This document shows positions 41,801 through 63,963 of a stretch of 64,000 nucleotides of DNA, one piece after another. Below the pieces are notes generated by a model that made no database searches, was not told the origin of the DNA, and worked only from the letters and a program-made list of their open reading frames with translations. A program made the translations under genes and the position numbers. This DNA comes from Apostichopus japonicus (taxonomy: Eukaryota > Echinodermata > Holothuroidea > Aspidochirotida > Stichopodidae): contig NC_092562.1 of assembly GCF_037975245.1 (NCBI RefSeq), positions 25,696,554 through 25,760,553 on the forward strand. Direction: 5' to 3'. Each line of letters opens with the position of its first letter. The first letter of the stretch is position 1.

Positions 41801-43702
41801 TAATTACAATCCAGCCATCTTTCTCACCAAAAGTTTTCAACCCAAGAAGTAAAGGTAAATGATTCTTTTTTTTTTAGAGCACTTTTTTTTTTGTGGATTT
41901 TTTTTTTTTTTTACGCTTTATAAATCATAAATTATTATTATATCTCAGTGAAACGATGCATCGAGCTTGTCTAGAATTTTTATGTTTTCAAGTGTTGATG
42001 GTTCAAATTTTACCTGATTTTTGCTGATATTTTTGCTTGCCACTTGCTTCTAGGAGTGCTAGCTCAGTGGTTAACGCCGGTGCCTTTCAATCATAAGGTC
42101 CCGAGTTCAAGTCACTCCAAGATTAATGTATATATCGTCCAGTTACAGAGTTGTTGACAATTGACAATTCATAACCATGGACGTTAAATATGAATCTAAG
42201 AGACTAACTTCGGTCAGCTTGCGGTTTTGATAAGCCAATGATGGCTTCTTCGCGAGTTCCCGCTTGCATGAGGATCTAAAGTTCATACATACATACATGC
42301 TACTACTGTACTGTGAGCCTGACCACACACAAAGTAGGAGCATATATGTAACTTCTTACTGTTTTCTAGTCGTCTTCTCTGCCTAACACCATGTCCTTTC
42401 TTCACTGTTGCAACCACTGTGGCAAACTTTCGGCCTTTAAGAGCAGACTGAGTCTCACTCTGGTTTTTGTTATCATTTTGAGCAGATGGGACCGGAGAAC
42501 TGTAAAAGAAACCGTTGATGTTATTTACACAACAATTGAAGATTAAGATTATAATTCTGACATTAGTCTAAATAGGCCGACGTGAGACACATTGGCCGCG
42601 GACTTGTATTGACCAATGAAAATTTGCAATTTACATTTAATTAACATTAATTAATAATAAACATGACATCAACAAATGTTGCCAAGCATTGTCAAATTAT
42701 TGAAACACGGACGGAATCCTTTGGTACAAAACATTGTCAATCGTTTTTATGTCTACATTATGTCACTGTGAATAGATCCTTTATGCACAAAATCTTTCAG
42801 GACAAAGAGAATATATGGTATATAGTATAAAAACAAGATTGAGGGTCACTTTATGACAAATTATTTGCTTGGTAGCTGAAACTAGGACTAGGAGCTGAAA
42901 CTAGGTCCTGTTTAGTATCTTCTCTTCACAGATCTACACAGTATAGCTGACCAGTGCATCTACATTTAACTTGAGTTTAACCAGAATCATGTGCAGTATC
43001 TTTCTGAAGGGAATAGTGTCATTCCACTTGACATAAAACTATGACAATGACATGGTTATAGTCTCAGTGTAGGTGGATTGGGGTTGAGAGTGGATCATTG
43101 TTTGATTTTTCATGCACAGACTCTATCTTGGGTGGGTTTCCATACATATGACCTTTCTATTATAACCACTATGTTGATGACATAGCCTAACTTAGACTAA
43201 TCATACTGGACCTAGCCTAGGTTAAGCCTAATTTAAAGTAGGCTAACTAGACTTTGGGATATTTGGGGGGTGACATTGTAGTTGATCATTGTTGTTGTTA
43301 TTTTGTTACCAATACTTGGCAAGTTAACTTGCACGGTAGTTGGCTCCATTCAAGTAAAAATGGACGAAAAAGCCAATTGCTAGGCAAGTAATAACTAAGG
43401 GATACGTTATAGTACGTAGGCATAGCTTTGGCCTAAGTTAATTTAGATCTAACTGCTGTTAGGCTTCGTGTTGTGCACATATTATTGAGATGGTAAAGTT
43501 GCCTGCACAATAACAGCAGCTATTGTAACGTAGACCTAATGTCCGGGTAGTTGCTGACGTCAAACTGTTTGATCAATTTCGAGTGTCGAAAGCACTTATA
43601 TTATTAAGAAAATATAGCCATATTGTTGTACCTGACTTGCTGTAACGGGGAATTAAAACCTCCGCTGGAAGACTGTTTCTTTTCAGCGCCTTCTTCGCCC
43701 AT
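37372..43702 (-). CDS. r3hdm4: R3H domain-containing protein 4 homologue, 7 exons, 287 aa
   Basis: Exons in transcript order: 43702-43632, 42499-42360, 40759-40638, 40006-39808, 38862-38777, 38414-38273, 37475-37372. All introns are GT-AG with consistent phases; total 864 nt including TAA. The start ATG has A at -3 and G at +4. Exon 1: MGEEGAEKKQSSSGGFNSPL. Exon 2 ends in basic RRRLEN. Exons 3-4 carry TNFLLNLVENEEYSNEESF, DKLFSDQESMEIWNKFINK and a Glu/Asp-rich run (ERDEDETVDDEDF). Exon 5: AYTPLDCYRRINTRLRAFLK. Exon 6 holds the R3H core. Exon 7 ends PPLMCLSDYLQSVR. Vertebrate R3HDM4 is about 270 residues with the same order. R3H domains bind single-stranded nucleic acid; the protein's cellular role is not established. 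The name rests on remembered family similarity, not a search. It lies upstream of gramd1 in the same direction, with about 7.7 kb between coding ends. Confidence 0.87.
38508..38738. mobile_element. degenerate hAT-like (Charlie-type) remnant in r3hdm4 intron 5
   Basis: Begins CAGCGGTCCACAAACTTTTA then GGACCACGACCCC, the style of many hAT MITE ends. A matching right end is weak (CTGTAAACGACTG, 9 of 15), and no target duplication is seen. Confidence 0.4.
39456..39786. mobile_element. hAT-like MITE in r3hdm4 intron 4
   Basis: Left end CAGGCCTCGAAATTT and right end GAAATTCTAGGCCTA are inverted with few differences. Internal part resembles 23635-23790. Target duplication not clear. Confidence 0.5.
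40937..41430. mobile_element. 494-bp hAT-like MITE with 6-bp target duplication, r3hdm4 intron 2
   Basis: Ends CAGGGATGTGCCCA and CTGGGCACATCCCTG are perfect inverted repeats over 14 bp. CATGTG flanks both sides (40931-40936, 41431-41436). The internal region repeats CCGCCCAGCACT three times near the left end. Confidence 0.8.
42053..42300 (+). mobile_element. tRNA-derived SINE, copy 3 (full length)
   Basis: GGAGTGCTAGCTCAGTGGTT, B-box region GAGTTCAAGTCACTCC, the shared body, and a CATACATACATAC tail. It is in r3hdm4 intron 2, antisense, ending about 60 bp before exon 2. Confidence 0.88.
42985..43142 (+). mobile_element. old, degenerate copy of the U2-headed retroposon
   Basis: GAATCATGTGCAGTATCT, AGTCTCAGTGTAGG, GGATTGGGGTTGAGAG and GGATCATTG follow the same order as in the copies at 61043 and 63471, with many substitutions. 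In r3hdm4 intron 1. Confidence 0.65.
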
Positions 43703-45597: not shown

Positions 45598-45722
45598 GAA
45601 AATATATATAAAAAAGGAAAATCGTTATGAGTTGGAAAATCAAGAACAGTGAAAAAACTCCAGCCTCCACCGGGATTCGAACCCGGGCCTCCCGCTTTGT
45701 ACGCGGACACCCTAACCAACTA

Positions 45723-45728
<6 letters not shown>
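45595..45728 (-). mobile_element. tRNA-derived SINE set between TA microsatellites
   Basis: On the minus strand: D arm GCCTAGTTGGTTAGGGT, anticodon stem TCCGC/GCGGG with loop GTACAAA, T arm CCGGG-TTCGAAT-CCCGG, then GGAGGC. The 5' acceptor strand is replaced by (TA)n, so it is not a working tRNA gene. It is followed by an unrelated 60-bp body (CACTGTTCTTGATTTTCC). Confidence 0.75.
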
Positions 45729-50012: not shown

Positions 50013-53000
50013 TTTTTTTATTTATTTATTATTATTTAACATTAAAGGGTATACTCGGTTAGCGTAAAGCTAATCTCCCCCGAGGCCCTGAAATAAAATA
50101 ACTAATAGTGAAATGACAAAATATAATCATATAAAATAATAATAATAAAATATAAAAATATGAGACGGCAATTAAAATAAAAAATAAAAAATGACTATGG
50201 CATAAAATACAACATGGAACAATCAATGAAAAGAAATTAAGAGCATAATAAATTAGAGTAATAAATTAGTAAAAATTAGTAATAAATTAGTAACTCCTGC
50301 ATAGAACGTTCAATAGTATTTAAAGACTTGGCATTCTTACACTCCTTTGATAATTCGTTCCATTCCTTAGCAGCAACATATGAAAATGTTTTCTGGTGAT
50401 ACTGGGTATTACCACCCTCTAAAAATAAATAATTTCGTGTGGTGGACCTAAGAGAGTGGTTATGTATATTATTTTCCACAACATACTGTGGAGCAAGACC
50501 ATTTAAAAGACCTATACACCATTGTCAATCTTTTTCATTTTAAACGTTTTTCGAGTGAGGACCAGTTTAAAGTTTTAAAAAGGTCTTCAGATCTATCATC
50601 AAATGTTGCATTGAGAATAATTCTTGCTGCAGCTTTCTGTAAACGACTAAGTCTGAGAACATTTCTGGCATTACTATTTCCCCATACTAAACTACAGTAC
50701 TCAACCATCGGTAAAATATATTCATTATAAAATAGAATTCAAGTATTGGTATCAATGAATGGTTTTATGCGTCTAAGAAGAGCCAATCTACTGGAAACGA
50801 GCTTGCAAACAGAATCGACTTGTTCATTCCAAGATAATACATTGTCGATTTTTACATTGTCGTTTTGTCGAATCTTCGACGGCAATATTTAATTTGTTAT
50901 TTGGAATGGATTTCAACCTTTGTCTTGAACCAATCAACATGCTTTTAGTTTTATTATTTATAACCATTTCATTTTTCTTGCACCATTTGCAAACATTATC
51001 TATATCCTCATTAAATTTGGTATTTAAATCATTCATAGACTTGCCCTTCATATGAATTGTTGTATCGTCTGCATACATGTCCGCATTGCAATAATTAATA
51101 CTTTGAACCATGTCATTAATAAACAAAACAAAGAGCAACGGGCCCAGAATTGACCCCTGTGGCACCCCACATGTTACTGGCAGTAAGGGGGGAAATACAC
51201 CATTTACACATGTAGATTGTTGTCTATTACATAAATACGACTAAAACCATGCAACAGAGCTTTCGGAAAGACCATATATAGATAACTTATTTATTAGAAT
51301 AAAATGGTTTACTAGGTCAAATGCTTTTCTCAGGTCTAGAAATACAGATCCTATAAGATATCCACTATCAATAGATTTATTCCAGTCGTCGATTATCTTT
51401 AGTAATGAAATTTCACAAGAGTGCCCTTTTCTAAAACCTGACTGGGACGATCGTATTAGACCAAATGCATTTAAAAACTTGGATAAAGCACCATGAACGT
51501 GTTTTTCTAATAGCTTCGATAATACAGGCAAGATTGAAATGGGTCGATAATTGGATACTTCTATATTTGAATCACTCTTGTAAATGGGAACAACTTTGGC
51601 TTTCTTCCGCTTAGTAGGAAAGACGGAGTTTCTGATGCTACTATTCACTACATTGGTGATACTGTTTGTTATTTCACTAGCAGATAAGTTAAGAAGATAT
51701 AGGAGCTAATCCCGCCCAGACCGGTGGCTTTAGTAGCATCCTTTGAAATAAGCGCTTTGTAGACAAATTCATCAGTCACCTCTGGAATCTGGAATGCAAC
51801 ACCATTGCGTAATTTGGAAGAAACAAACTCTTAAACACTTGCTAAATAATCATCATCCACATTGTTGTTAATACCAATAAGATACTTAGACGATACAGAC
51901 GTAAAGAATTCGCTAAATGACTTAGCGATATCGAGTGGATCTGCTTCTAGGTTACCATTGTTGATTATCGTGCTTATTTTCTGCTGACTTTTCATTTTAG
52001 TATCATTGGACTGAATATTTTTTAGGATTTGCCAAATAGCTTTGGAATCGCCTTTGCCCTTAACATTAGAATCTCTGAAATAACTTTGTTTAGTTGATCG
52101 AATTAAACTTACAACTTTGTTTCTCCAGAATCGATATATCTCTGGATATTTTAATTTTGACGAATTCCTCATTTTAATGGCATGACTTATCTCAGCATTG
52201 AACCACTTGGGCTGATTTTTTATTTTGAACTTTTTTTTTCTTTTAGGGGAGCATGTTTATTAACAATATTAAGACAAATATTTTCTCAATTTTCTAACGA
52301 ACGATTTGCATCTGCTACCTGCAACACAGATTGCCAAGAACAATACCTTATAGGTCTTGCTTGAACGCATTTACATCTAATTTATTTGTCGCACGATATT
52401 TCATGGTTTCGTGACCCGTCTTTTTTGATGATGCATGGTTGGTGTAAGGCAGCGTGTTCTAAGTGAAATATATCGGGTAATGGTCACTCAACTTAATTTT
52501 TGGAACTTCAGTATTAATAATAATAAATGAACTTATATAAAGCGCTAAAATCTACGAAGTATTCAATAGCGCTGTACAACCCTAATGGAACGCCAACTTG
52601 AAAAAAAAAATGAGTCTTCAAGCAAGACTTGAACTGACTGAGAGTAGGAGAACTCCACACAGATATGGGCAGACCATTCCAGAGCTTGGGCCCGGCTGAT
52701 GGGAAGGCACGGTCGCCATAGGTTTTCAGTTTAGTTCTGGGAACAGTGAGAGTGAGTGTATTGCTAGAACGCAAGGTATAACGAGTATTGACCTGGAAGG
52801 ACAGATCGTCTGACAAATAGGCGGGTGCCATTCCATGAATGCACTTATACACCAGGATCAGTACTTTGCACTTAATTCTGAATTCAACAGGCAACCAGTG
52901 CAAAGAATGGAGGATACTCAACGATGGTGTGTTGAAGTCATAGCAATCTACAACAAGCCTGGCTGCGCTATTGACAATTCGACTTTCTTTAAATTAGTCG

Positions 53001-60626: not shown

Positions 60627-61042
60627 ATCATCCGTTTAAAGATAAGAGCTGAATATTGAGCAGTAATCATTGTACATTTCTAAATGTTATCACGGCTGAA
60701 TAGACACAGAGAAGTTAATGGTATATGCACAAATGACAGTTACAGCAGTCTCAGAAAAAAACACTCAATAACGAAACCATTTTCTGTCTGCTAACTACTT
60801 GTACATTTTTACTGCAATGTATACAGCGAGAGACTTTGTTTGAGGTAATTTACAATACTATGGAACTATAGAATAATTAGCTTTACTCCTTACTTTGATC
60901 ACAGTTATGTAGGGAGCGTACTTAATGAAGTAAGTTCTTTCCGACTGCCTTGAAGCTTGTAAAAACTTCCCATACAGATTAACATGCGGACGGGTACTCA
61001 ACATTTCAAACATAGAAAGCCTTAAAAGTAGCATCAACTGCA

Positions 61043-61240
61043 CCAACTTCTCGGCCTTTTGGCTAAGATCATGTGTAGTATCTGTTCCCTTTCGAGGGGA
61101 ATGGTGATGCACACCCGACGATGATCAAACAGTCACAGTCTCGATGCAAGGGGACTGGGGCTGAGAGCGGATCAGTCGTTCGGTAGTTTGGTTTTCGTGC
61201 CCAGGTTATTTCCTGGGCGACTTGTTTTTAAAGTACCAAA
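61043..61240 (+). mobile_element. U2 snRNA-headed retroposon, copy with intact head
   Basis: Positions 61047-61087 match U2 snRNA nucleotides 5-45 with one difference (CTTCTCGGCCTTTTGGCTAA, then the branch-site recognition region GTGTAGTATCTGTTC). After that the sequence departs from U2: no Sm site, no standard stems III/IV. The body has GCAAGGGGACTGGGGCTGAG and a terminal hairpin GCCCAGG-TTATTT-CCTGGGC. It is therefore not a normal U2 gene. The fusion of a U2 5' end to another body suggests a SINE (inference). Confidence 0.75.
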
Positions 61241-63456
61241 CTATTCTGGAGAACAGCAAATCTCTCCACAATTATCTGTGATGGCGTTATCATATCACCT
61301 AACACAAGGACGTAAGGTTGGTTCTGTTCTGCTTTATTTTCCAATGCCTGAAGGTAAATGTGGCAAGTTTGTTCCCAACCTGTGAGTGGAAGACAGGAAC
61401 ATGATATTTGTAAGATGCTAAACCAGAAATATGCATCAAATGGTTTCAATGCCTTTATATGTTTTAATCATAGTCTATTAATCATAGTCTAAGTTGCCAT
61501 GGCCATTTACAGTATTGGCAATTTACAAAACTATATGAATGGACTATTTTGTATTTGCTTAGTCATTAATAAACATGTCATGAGGGCAGAAGAGATCATG
61601 TACTCATTATGGCCAACATATATACTAAGTATGACATGAATCCAACTTGTTGAAAAATCTTGTTTTAACAATTTTTTTAGACTGCAAACTTTCTAGACAC
61701 ATCCAGCGATGTATATTAATTAATGAGATTAAATTAATTGATTATGTGAGCATGCATCTACCACCAACTGATCGTACCATGCATGAATATGTCAAATGCC
61801 AAATTATTAATATTTTAGCACCTCCATGTCATTAATACACATATCGAATTTAATCAAACCCATGTGTTTAGTATGGCTGATATACATATTCCAAGTAAGA
61901 CATCATTTCATTTTGTCGTAGACATGTTTCCAACTTTGGTGTTACACACATGCAACACACGTAAACTTGACTGCCAAGGTTCTGATATTGCCATCAGCAT
62001 ATGAACAAAACACAAACTGTACACTAGCAAATGGTCTCTACTGTTGCATAACATACTATAAGTGATATATCATCAAATGTTAAGCACGGTTTTGTAATGG
62101 GCTACTTTTAATGACATTTACACCAATAGCTTTCCTCTGATTAAAATAGGTAAGAGAGAGAGGGGAAAAAAACCCATCCCTGAACCACTAATGGTTTGCA
62201 AATTCAGTCGATGAAGTGTAAAAATAAGATTTACATATATTATCTTTTATTACATATATTATTATTTACATATATTATCTTTATTACATTTTCTTTATTA
62301 CATCTTTATTACATATATTATATTAAACAAACAACTCAAACGTACAAAGCTTATTACAACAGGCATCGAAACAAATGAACTCATATCATTGGTATTGCAA
62401 AGCTATTGCATTACAAAAGTTTATTTGAAAATTTCAAAAACGACTCAAAACGCACCTGGCAACACATATAGGCCCTACATGACATTTTGCACAAAGGGGG
62501 AAAACGTCATTACATATATCCTGACAATTTAGTTGACAGCAAAAAGTCTTGAAATATCCTTTAAGCATTACTAATGCATTCAATGAATTTGTTATCTACC
62601 TCGGGCCTTCGCTTGCAAAAACCCATTCCTAATGTTTGTCATACAAAGAACTGTTTATCAGACAGCAACCGTTCGTCCGTGTTTTTCTCTCCACTTAGCA
62701 ATGATGAATTTACAAAGATCGCATAATTATGCTTGTTTGAATCCCTCGAAATCAGCTGGCTACGTCCTAACTGGCGTCCTGACTTTGCCCGTAGAGTAGG
62801 CCCCAATTCCCTTGATCTAGATGATGAACACCCACATCGCCTGGATAAAATAAACTATTTGTATTGACTCAAAGCTTAATTGGTTTGCTGCAAAATAAGC
62901 TTATATGATCCTTAAATATCAGTAAAAACAAACTTCAGGTTCTTTAACAGATTTAAGCATTACCAGCATTATAATTTCAATATTAAGGTAAATGGCCATA
63001 CTCTTGATTATGTACGAAAATGAAATATGTATATATATAGTGATACCGCTATACAGTTGCAGCTATGTCATTAGCACCGATACAAACAACACTTTTTAAC
63101 TAACTTTAGCCATATATCCGTCCTCAGACTGTCAGATAAAGAATTAAATACACGAATAGTTTAACATAGTGACATCTGTAGTCCCACCCAACCTCACCCA
63201 CCCATTTGTTTAAGCTCTTTTACTTTGACTGGACATATATATTTCAATTTCTTTAATATAGCTTTCAAGTTAGAGACGTAGATTATATGATGTTACAATC
63301 ACAGAGTATAAGAATAGAAATAGCATTTATCAGTTTCATCATATCCGTTCTCTATTTACATTATACTTTTACATGAAACATCACGTAAGCATATAGGCAG
63401 CCTTTATGTTAGTCTGTTTATTTTTTTACTCTTATCTCTAAATGTAAATTTCTACA
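61241..63456. other. no gene recognised; TTACATATATTA repeats near 62230
   Basis: Repeated TTACATATATTATCTTTA blocks at 62231-62330. The rest is AT-rich with no recognised element. Confidence 0.5.
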
Positions 63457-63470
63457 ATAAAATGAAATGG

Positions 63471-63640
63471 CTAAGATCATGTGTAGTATCTGTTCCCTTC
63501 GGGAATGGTGATACACACCTGACGATGATCACACAGTCACAGTCCCGATGCAAGGGGACTGGGGCTGAGAGCGGATCAGTCGTTTGGTAGTTTGGTTTTC
63601 GTGCCCAGGTTCTTTCCTGGGTGACTTTTTCTTAAAAAGT
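63471..63640 (+). mobile_element. U2-headed retroposon, 5'-truncated copy with 14-bp target duplication
   Basis: Starts at GGCTAAGATCATGTGTAGTA (U2 position about 19) and follows the 61043 copy closely to the hairpin GCCCAGG-TTCTTT-CCTGGG. ATAAAATGAAATGG flanks both ends (63457-63470, 63641-63654). This is strong evidence of LINE-driven insertion and 5' truncation. Confidence 0.85.
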
Positions 63641-63963
63641 ATAAAATGAAATGGAAAAAAACAAAAACAGAAAACAAAACTGTAAAAGAAATAAAAAAAA
63701 TAATCCAGTACAGATTATTTTGTGACCAAGAAAGTTACGGTGAATTTGCATCATCGTTTGATGTACAACCTTTGACCTTTCTAAATATTCCCGTCATTCC
63801 TGCAGGCCTGGTGAGAGGAGAGAAGGGTAAGGGGGTTACAGCTCGAGGCCCGGAGTCAATTTGGGGGCCCGGAAAATAGGTAAGGGGCCTGGAAAATATA
63901 GGATATATGAACAATGCCTGGTGACATAAATTACCCTGTGGGCTCGATCCGGCTCTCGTCACC

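Follow-up and report, generated by a model that had tools for sequence, protein, structure and literature searches.

This locus raises the question of why a short repeat in the genome of the sea cucumber Apostichopus japonicus begins with the 5′ end of U2 snRNA, and how such a repeat can be transcribed. snRNA genes have external promoters, and a SINE copy headed by part of such a gene should therefore not be transcribed, which is a puzzle. An earlier note, made from the sequence alone, had proposed three U2-headed retroposon copies of widely different age in the window, i.e., the whole stretch of 64,000 nt analyzed here (contig NC_092562.1, positions 25,696,554 to 25,760,553).

U2-headed SINE copies in the window and the genome

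All three copies are real and lie on the plus strand. The head of copy 1 (61047–61234) occupies 61047–61087 and equals U2 nt 5–45, as had been claimed; aligned to the U2 genes of this genome it matches the host's own U2, including GATCATGTG, which both carry. With the Rfam U2 model (RF00004), copy 1 scored 54 bits, above the gathering score of 46; the likeness is clear at U2 nt 1–45 and poor over the remainder. Within the head, ATCTGTTC at 61080–61087 represents U2 nt 38–45, the start of the U2 insertion site as defined by SINE and LINE insertions in U2 genes (see below). The body follows at 61088–61234, belongs to a long-loop subfamily and ends in a 3′ hairpin (GCCCAGG/CCTGGGC) and a terminal AAAGT. 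A short imperfect target duplication, ACCAA at 61235–61239 with its left partner at 61042–61046, flanks this copy, whose fold was more stable than those of 200 out of 200 shuffled sequences (z −4.5).

Copy 2 (63468/63471–63640), of a short-loop young subfamily, is 92.5% identical to copy 1 across 173 bp (E 2e-68). Its retroposition and 5′ truncation are borne out by a perfect 14-bp target duplication, ATAAAATGAAATGG, to the left (63457–63470) and right (63641–63654) of the copy, and by a start inside the head at U2 nt 18–21. The third copy (42979–43137), matched to copy 1 by nhmmer within the window (E 2.2e-9), has a decayed U2 head and belongs to an older subfamily with a longer middle.

On the minus strand, the window also contains a tRNA-like Rfam match (45670–45725; 34.7 bits) that adjoins a TA-repeat and may be a tRNA-derived repeat, and a decayed LINE with two RT fragments (50824–51705).

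Searching the entire genome (671,581,487 bases in 35 contigs), we found a 31-nt body core with up to three mismatches in 1,802 places (929 + 873) and the 41-nt head, likewise with up to three mismatches, in 1,029 (488 + 541); the respective controls, a reversed sequence in the case of the core, gave 0. The head places include at most 60 uninterrupted U2 genes and some U2 genes interrupted after the head. About one body copy in two has thus retained a near-complete head. The SINE unit is ~190 bp long and non-coding, its 3′ end reads GTGCCCAGGTTCTTTCCTGGGYGACTTTTTCTTAAAAAGT, and the body-core matches listed are spread over many contigs. A 25-mer of the body had 0 matches in viral contigs, and no similarity of the body to other Rfam families was found. 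The copies analyzed were those of the window, sets of 8 and 30 loci, and 40 stretches taken in list order from the first 100 of the 1,802 places, so that the copies studied in detail are biased toward young ones.

The wide spread of ages holds as well. For the old copy, 39 other matches with 72–87% identity were obtained (71 candidates at first look, of which 40 were scored, including the copy itself). Seven of these relatives were inspected and represent an older subfamily, whose body differs in length from that of the young family; the five with sufficiently complete alignments (L118, L119, L120, L122, and L124) have a longer middle and a shorter later part. Among the old-copy alignments listed, traces of the U2 head persist in L120, L122, L123, and L124, and the association of the family with U2 is therefore old. 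Target duplications, 5′ truncation, with starts ranging from nt 1 to 171, and a fixed 3′ end are marks of retroposition, and the data support a family of SINEs with a U2 head that spread by retroposition and whose members differ greatly in age.

Insertions within the host U2 genes

The earlier note had left it to the host's functional U2 genes whether the body belongs to them. In the whole genome, a pattern across nt 31–63 identified 60 U2 genes without interruption, 56 on contig C16 and 4 on C15. Among the candidates scored with Rfam, 46 were full-length and canonical (4 on C15 and 42 on C16, where the spacing is often 645 bp). Because these 60 genes are uninterrupted where the body would start, the family is a SINE and not U2, and the copies are not U2 pseudogenes, in agreement with the note. 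Some genes of the array do carry the body, in the form of site-specific interrupting insertions.

In 58 kb of U2 loci we counted 41 U2 3′ halves, 10 of which are interrupted between nt 37 and 38, two by the SINE, three by a LINE called LINE A, two by LINE B, and three by a third element. A genome-wide search for the junction AAAAAGT|ATCTGTTCTTTTCAGCTTAATATCTG, allowing up to two mismatches, gave 23 places, 22 of them in the U2 array on C16 and one on C20. The array places comprise 6 with AAAAAGT, 4 with AGAAAGT, and 12 with GAAAAGT. All six AAAAAGT places were read and turned out to be the SINE, whole or 5′-truncated, at U2 nt 37/38, and the six SINE-bearing U2 units lie at 31.006–31.135 Mb of C16. 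Three of them (L038, L071, and L114) have the U2 promoter, U2 nt 1–50 as a single head, the SINE body, and the rest of U2, in this order. The last 60 bases of the promoter are identical in these three whole residents, which differ at the junction between head and body (TTCCCTTA, TTCCCCTC, or ATCCCTTA). L114 additionally holds a 5′-truncated SINE in U2 that is flanked on either side by a duplicate of the U2 site (about 15–16 bp), L112 a short SINE remnant behind a LINE in the same U2 gene, and L113 a serial SINE pair behind the U2 promoter and head. The downstream Sm-type site, ATTTTTG, is retained in resident copies together with the remaining part of U2. At the C20 place (L115), the SINE is of the old form and bears a second, stacked head.

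A dispersed SINE copy lies ~1.2 kb from a U2 gene on C15, outside the gene (L011 2885–3070; C15:6480064–6480249). The third element, with the tail CCACATTAAAAGAA, was seen at U2 nt 37/38 in three copies in the U2 loci examined (C16:31096397, 31109838, and 31118098).

The same U2 site thus takes the SINE as well as at least three LINE-like tails. The open frames of LINE A (in L071) comprise 475 and 1,153 codons and contain a zinc knuckle, an APE endonuclease, an RT, and a zf-RVT (Pfam domains Exo_endo_phos, RVT_1, and zf-RVT); the left junction of this copy in U2 is irregular, with no clean left duplication. For LINE B (in L116), the open frames measure 510 and 1,162 codons, and its insertion made a 13-bp duplication, ATCTGTTCTTTTC. 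The junctions of both are at U2 nt 37/38, the same site as that of the SINE. The body of the SINE gave no nhmmer match at E 10 to LINE A or LINE B, where LINE A was represented up to its last ~20 nt, which were compared on one strand; the best blastn match of the body to LINE pieces from the U2 array had an E value of 0.17 over 15 bases. What the SINE and the U2-site LINEs share is just the end ACTT...AAAGT, so that the 3′-end identity with a local LINE that had been suggested to look for exists weakly, in this terminal motif, whereas the remainder of the tails is unlike. A 19-nt LINE tail occurs exactly in 17 places, all on C16 at 30.885–31.163 Mb, in or beside the U2 array, and with one mismatch in 12 places elsewhere, versus 5 in the control. 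LINE A and LINE B are candidate helpers of the SINE, and this is the weakest link of the model proposed below. Because the 17 exact LINE tails are bound to the array whereas the ~1,800 SINE copies are mostly dispersed, the helper may be another LINE.

Just upstream of a U2 gene lies a second LINE type (L069 1518–5515; C16:31041517–31045514) with open frames of 407 and 961 codons, the longer of which contains an APE endonuclease and an RT. Its 3′ end is present once more in front of the next U2 gene.

Junctions, ends, and targets of dispersed copies

In each of the 55 dispersed copies that could be read, the U2 part leads into one body start, GGGAATGG, separated from ATCTG by 8–12 bases (the pattern allowed 4–12). 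The junctions fall into three main forms, TTCCCTTTCGAG (16 copies), TTCCCTTC (16), and TTCCCTTA (10), and rarer ones, namely the native U2 sequence TTCTTTTC (3), TTCCCCTC (1), and minor forms (9). With the TTCTTTTC junction, U2 continues up to nt 50, where the 13-bp duplication of LINE B in U2 has its right edge. Over 186 nt, four dispersed copies are identical to the resident with TTCCCTTA and one to the resident with TTCCCCTC; no twin of the ATCCCTTA resident was found among the dispersed copies compared. Another four dispersed copies carry TTCCCTTC and are otherwise identical in form, and none of the six array residents has this junction.

To describe ends and targets, two sets were used. 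The first comprises 77 of 92 copies, the remaining 15 lacking an intact 3′ AAAGT or being truncated at the 3′ end; this set omits the U2-gene loci and ten others, nine of which were overlapping or duplicate and the tenth of which, L068, is partly re-covered by L072. For the second, of 48 independent flanks, duplicate flanks were removed along with 11 loci, most of which held serial or multiple copies. The copies start at U2 nt 1–7 in 34 of the 48 independent dispersed cases and in 47 of the 77 with an intact 3′ end. A duplication of 8–20 bp begins exactly at the 3′ end in 44 of these 77 dispersed copies, serial units included. The first base of the 3′ flank is A in 47/48 cases, and the flank begins with ATC in 13/48, versus a background of 1.6% (P 4e-13), with ACC in 10/48, and with ATCT in 7/48. 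The favored dispersed targets thus begin with ATC like the site in U2 itself, which reads ATCTG. A blastn comparison (E 0.01) of 78 dispersed loci, some of which overlap, gave no similarity to the U2 promoter.

Some loci are composite. In L093 and L097, the SINE appears to have re-entered an older copy at the U2 site in the head of that copy, with recombination as the alternative. In L050 (1010–2301; C2:21947645–21948936), nine SINE units follow one another, with the repeated target ATCCTAT... between them. The first is full-length and the others are 5′-truncated at several points; because the last units repeat as a pair, part of this array was probably duplicated later. A second partial U2 head is stacked in front of the copies in L005 and L115. 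These serial SINE-in-SINE arrays (L050, L093, L097) and stacked heads show that other routes also operate beside the one proposed in the following.

Origin of the head and proposed amplification

Taken as a whole, we consider the following account quite probable. The SINE, a non-autonomous non-LTR retroposon, would have its source copies in the U2 snRNA genes of the host, at the position between nt 37 and 38, where the RNA polymerase II promoter of U2 would drive a transcript consisting of U2 nt 1–50 and the ~140-nt body. LINE machinery with a preference for the U2 site, most likely that of the Keno-like APE LINEs of the array, would reverse-transcribe this RNA, beginning at the 3′ end of the body with its terminal hairpin and AAAAAGT. 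The new copy would go back into U2 genes or to off-target sites whose start resembles that of the U2 site (A-T/C-C), and off-target copies would keep the U2 head without the promoter and would mostly be dead on arrival. Residence behind the host promoter can explain both the transcription of the SINE and the origin of its head, for which the 5′ part of the U2 gene that houses the source copies is a better explanation than an old fusion. To our knowledge, the head contains no known promoter, and the SINE has TTTT runs at nt 15, 146, and 176, which argue against Pol III transcription; Pol II transcription from the U2 residents is therefore the likely route.

Three other explanations were weighed against this account. 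That the family consists of variant U2 genes or of U2 pseudogenes is scarcely credible and already contradicted: copy 1 and half of the dispersed loci scored (10/20) reach the Rfam gathering score for U2, but a gene variant is ruled out by the 60 uninterrupted and 46 canonical full-length genes, and target duplications, precise 3′ ends, and the U2 promoter at 0/78 dispersed loci speak against this reading too. A classical snRNA-headed SINE is a better competitor, although still an unlikely one. Head and body would then have been fused once, away from the U2 genes, and the U2 residents would be late by-products without a role in amplification. Such a history fits the vast excess of copies outside U2 over those inside, the junction CCCTTA within U2 genes in place of U2's own TTTTC, as if the head had been inherited with the element, and the full-headed copy in L093 at the U2 site within the head of another SINE. 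It leaves the element with neither a known promoter in its head nor the U2 promoter at any of the 78 dispersed loci, and it fits poorly with the native TTCTTTTC junction in 3/55 copies, in which U2 reaches precisely to the right edge of the LINE B duplication, and with the identical dispersed copies of two of the three whole residents.

Template jumping, by which the reverse transcriptase would pass from the body RNA to U2 snRNA and repeatedly add U2 5′ ends, appears very improbable. For R2, jumps to U12 snRNA and to tRNA have been reported (PMC3414825), and this precedent as well as the second partial heads in L005 and L115 would suit it; it predicts variable jump points, yet all 55 readable dispersed copies enter the body at the same start, and the U2 residents have a promoter in front.

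Beyond the account centered on U2-resident sources, we tentatively propose, with clearly less confidence and some doubt, a self-renewing cycle, in which the U2 head would serve as transcript start and also as homology arm for a seamless re-entry of the cDNA into U2 genes, recreating a promoter-equipped source. The element would in that case capture a host snRNA promoter without carrying one. Judging from the Sm-type site and the rest of U2 that it would contain, the resident RNA might receive a cap and be built into an oversized snRNP. If the account is true, a SINE competes with LINEs for a small multicopy gene. The copies of the U2 array, with the promoter attached, make the puzzle of how a headed SINE is transcribed directly testable.

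We are not aware of any SINE described as residing in snRNA genes, and none appeared among the titles and abstract openings listed in the literature searched. The closest known kinds are SINEU and the R2 SIDEs. SINEU of crocodilians, reportedly described by Kojima in 2015, is said to have a U1- or U2-derived head, recurrent addition of heads, and mobilization by a Tx1-type LINE, and its target is said to be a Mariner transposon and not U2. The sea cucumber SINE is likewise snRNA-headed (U2 nt 1–45/50), but its copies with a U2 promoter lie inside U2 genes.

The R2 SIDEs of Drosophila, which are non-autonomous, occupy a multicopy RNA gene, are transcribed together with it, and rely on a site-specific LINE; they are internally deleted LINEs with a self-cleaving ribozyme at their start (PMC3414825). 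Similarly, the SINE occupies the very site of LINE A and LINE B in a multicopy RNA gene, with six insertions at nt 37/38, and co-transcription and dependence on a LINE would be further likenesses. In contrast to the SIDEs, it is not made of the ends of LINE A or B, to which its body shows no similarity, it keeps a 5′ segment of the host U2 instead of a ribozyme (copy 1 has no Rfam ribozyme match), and it is mostly dispersed.

Keno and Utopia are U2-specific LINEs, Keno being APE-type, and U2 downstream of them is given as starting at nt 39 (PMC4640811), within one base of numbering of the SINE insertion point (nt 38). LINE A resembles Keno in being APE-type, with APE endonuclease and RT found, at the same U2 site, and LINE B has its junctions at this site and open frames. 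Keno and Utopia are autonomous, whereas the SINE codes for nothing. An origin of the head solely from a Utopia or Keno left-over ending at the insertion point is ruled out, as the head extends to nt 45–50.

For annotators, these results carry the warning that dispersed SINE copies can score as U2 genes: among 20 loci hand-picked from the 40 dispersed stretches, 10 reached the Rfam U2 gathering score. The published A. japonicus assembly is reported to have 996 'splicing' snRNAs and 0.02% SINEs (159,644 bp) (PMC10344927). Copies scoring as U2 probably inflate snRNA counts such as this one, and the 1,802 body-core matches probably exceed the published SINE total of 159,644 bp.
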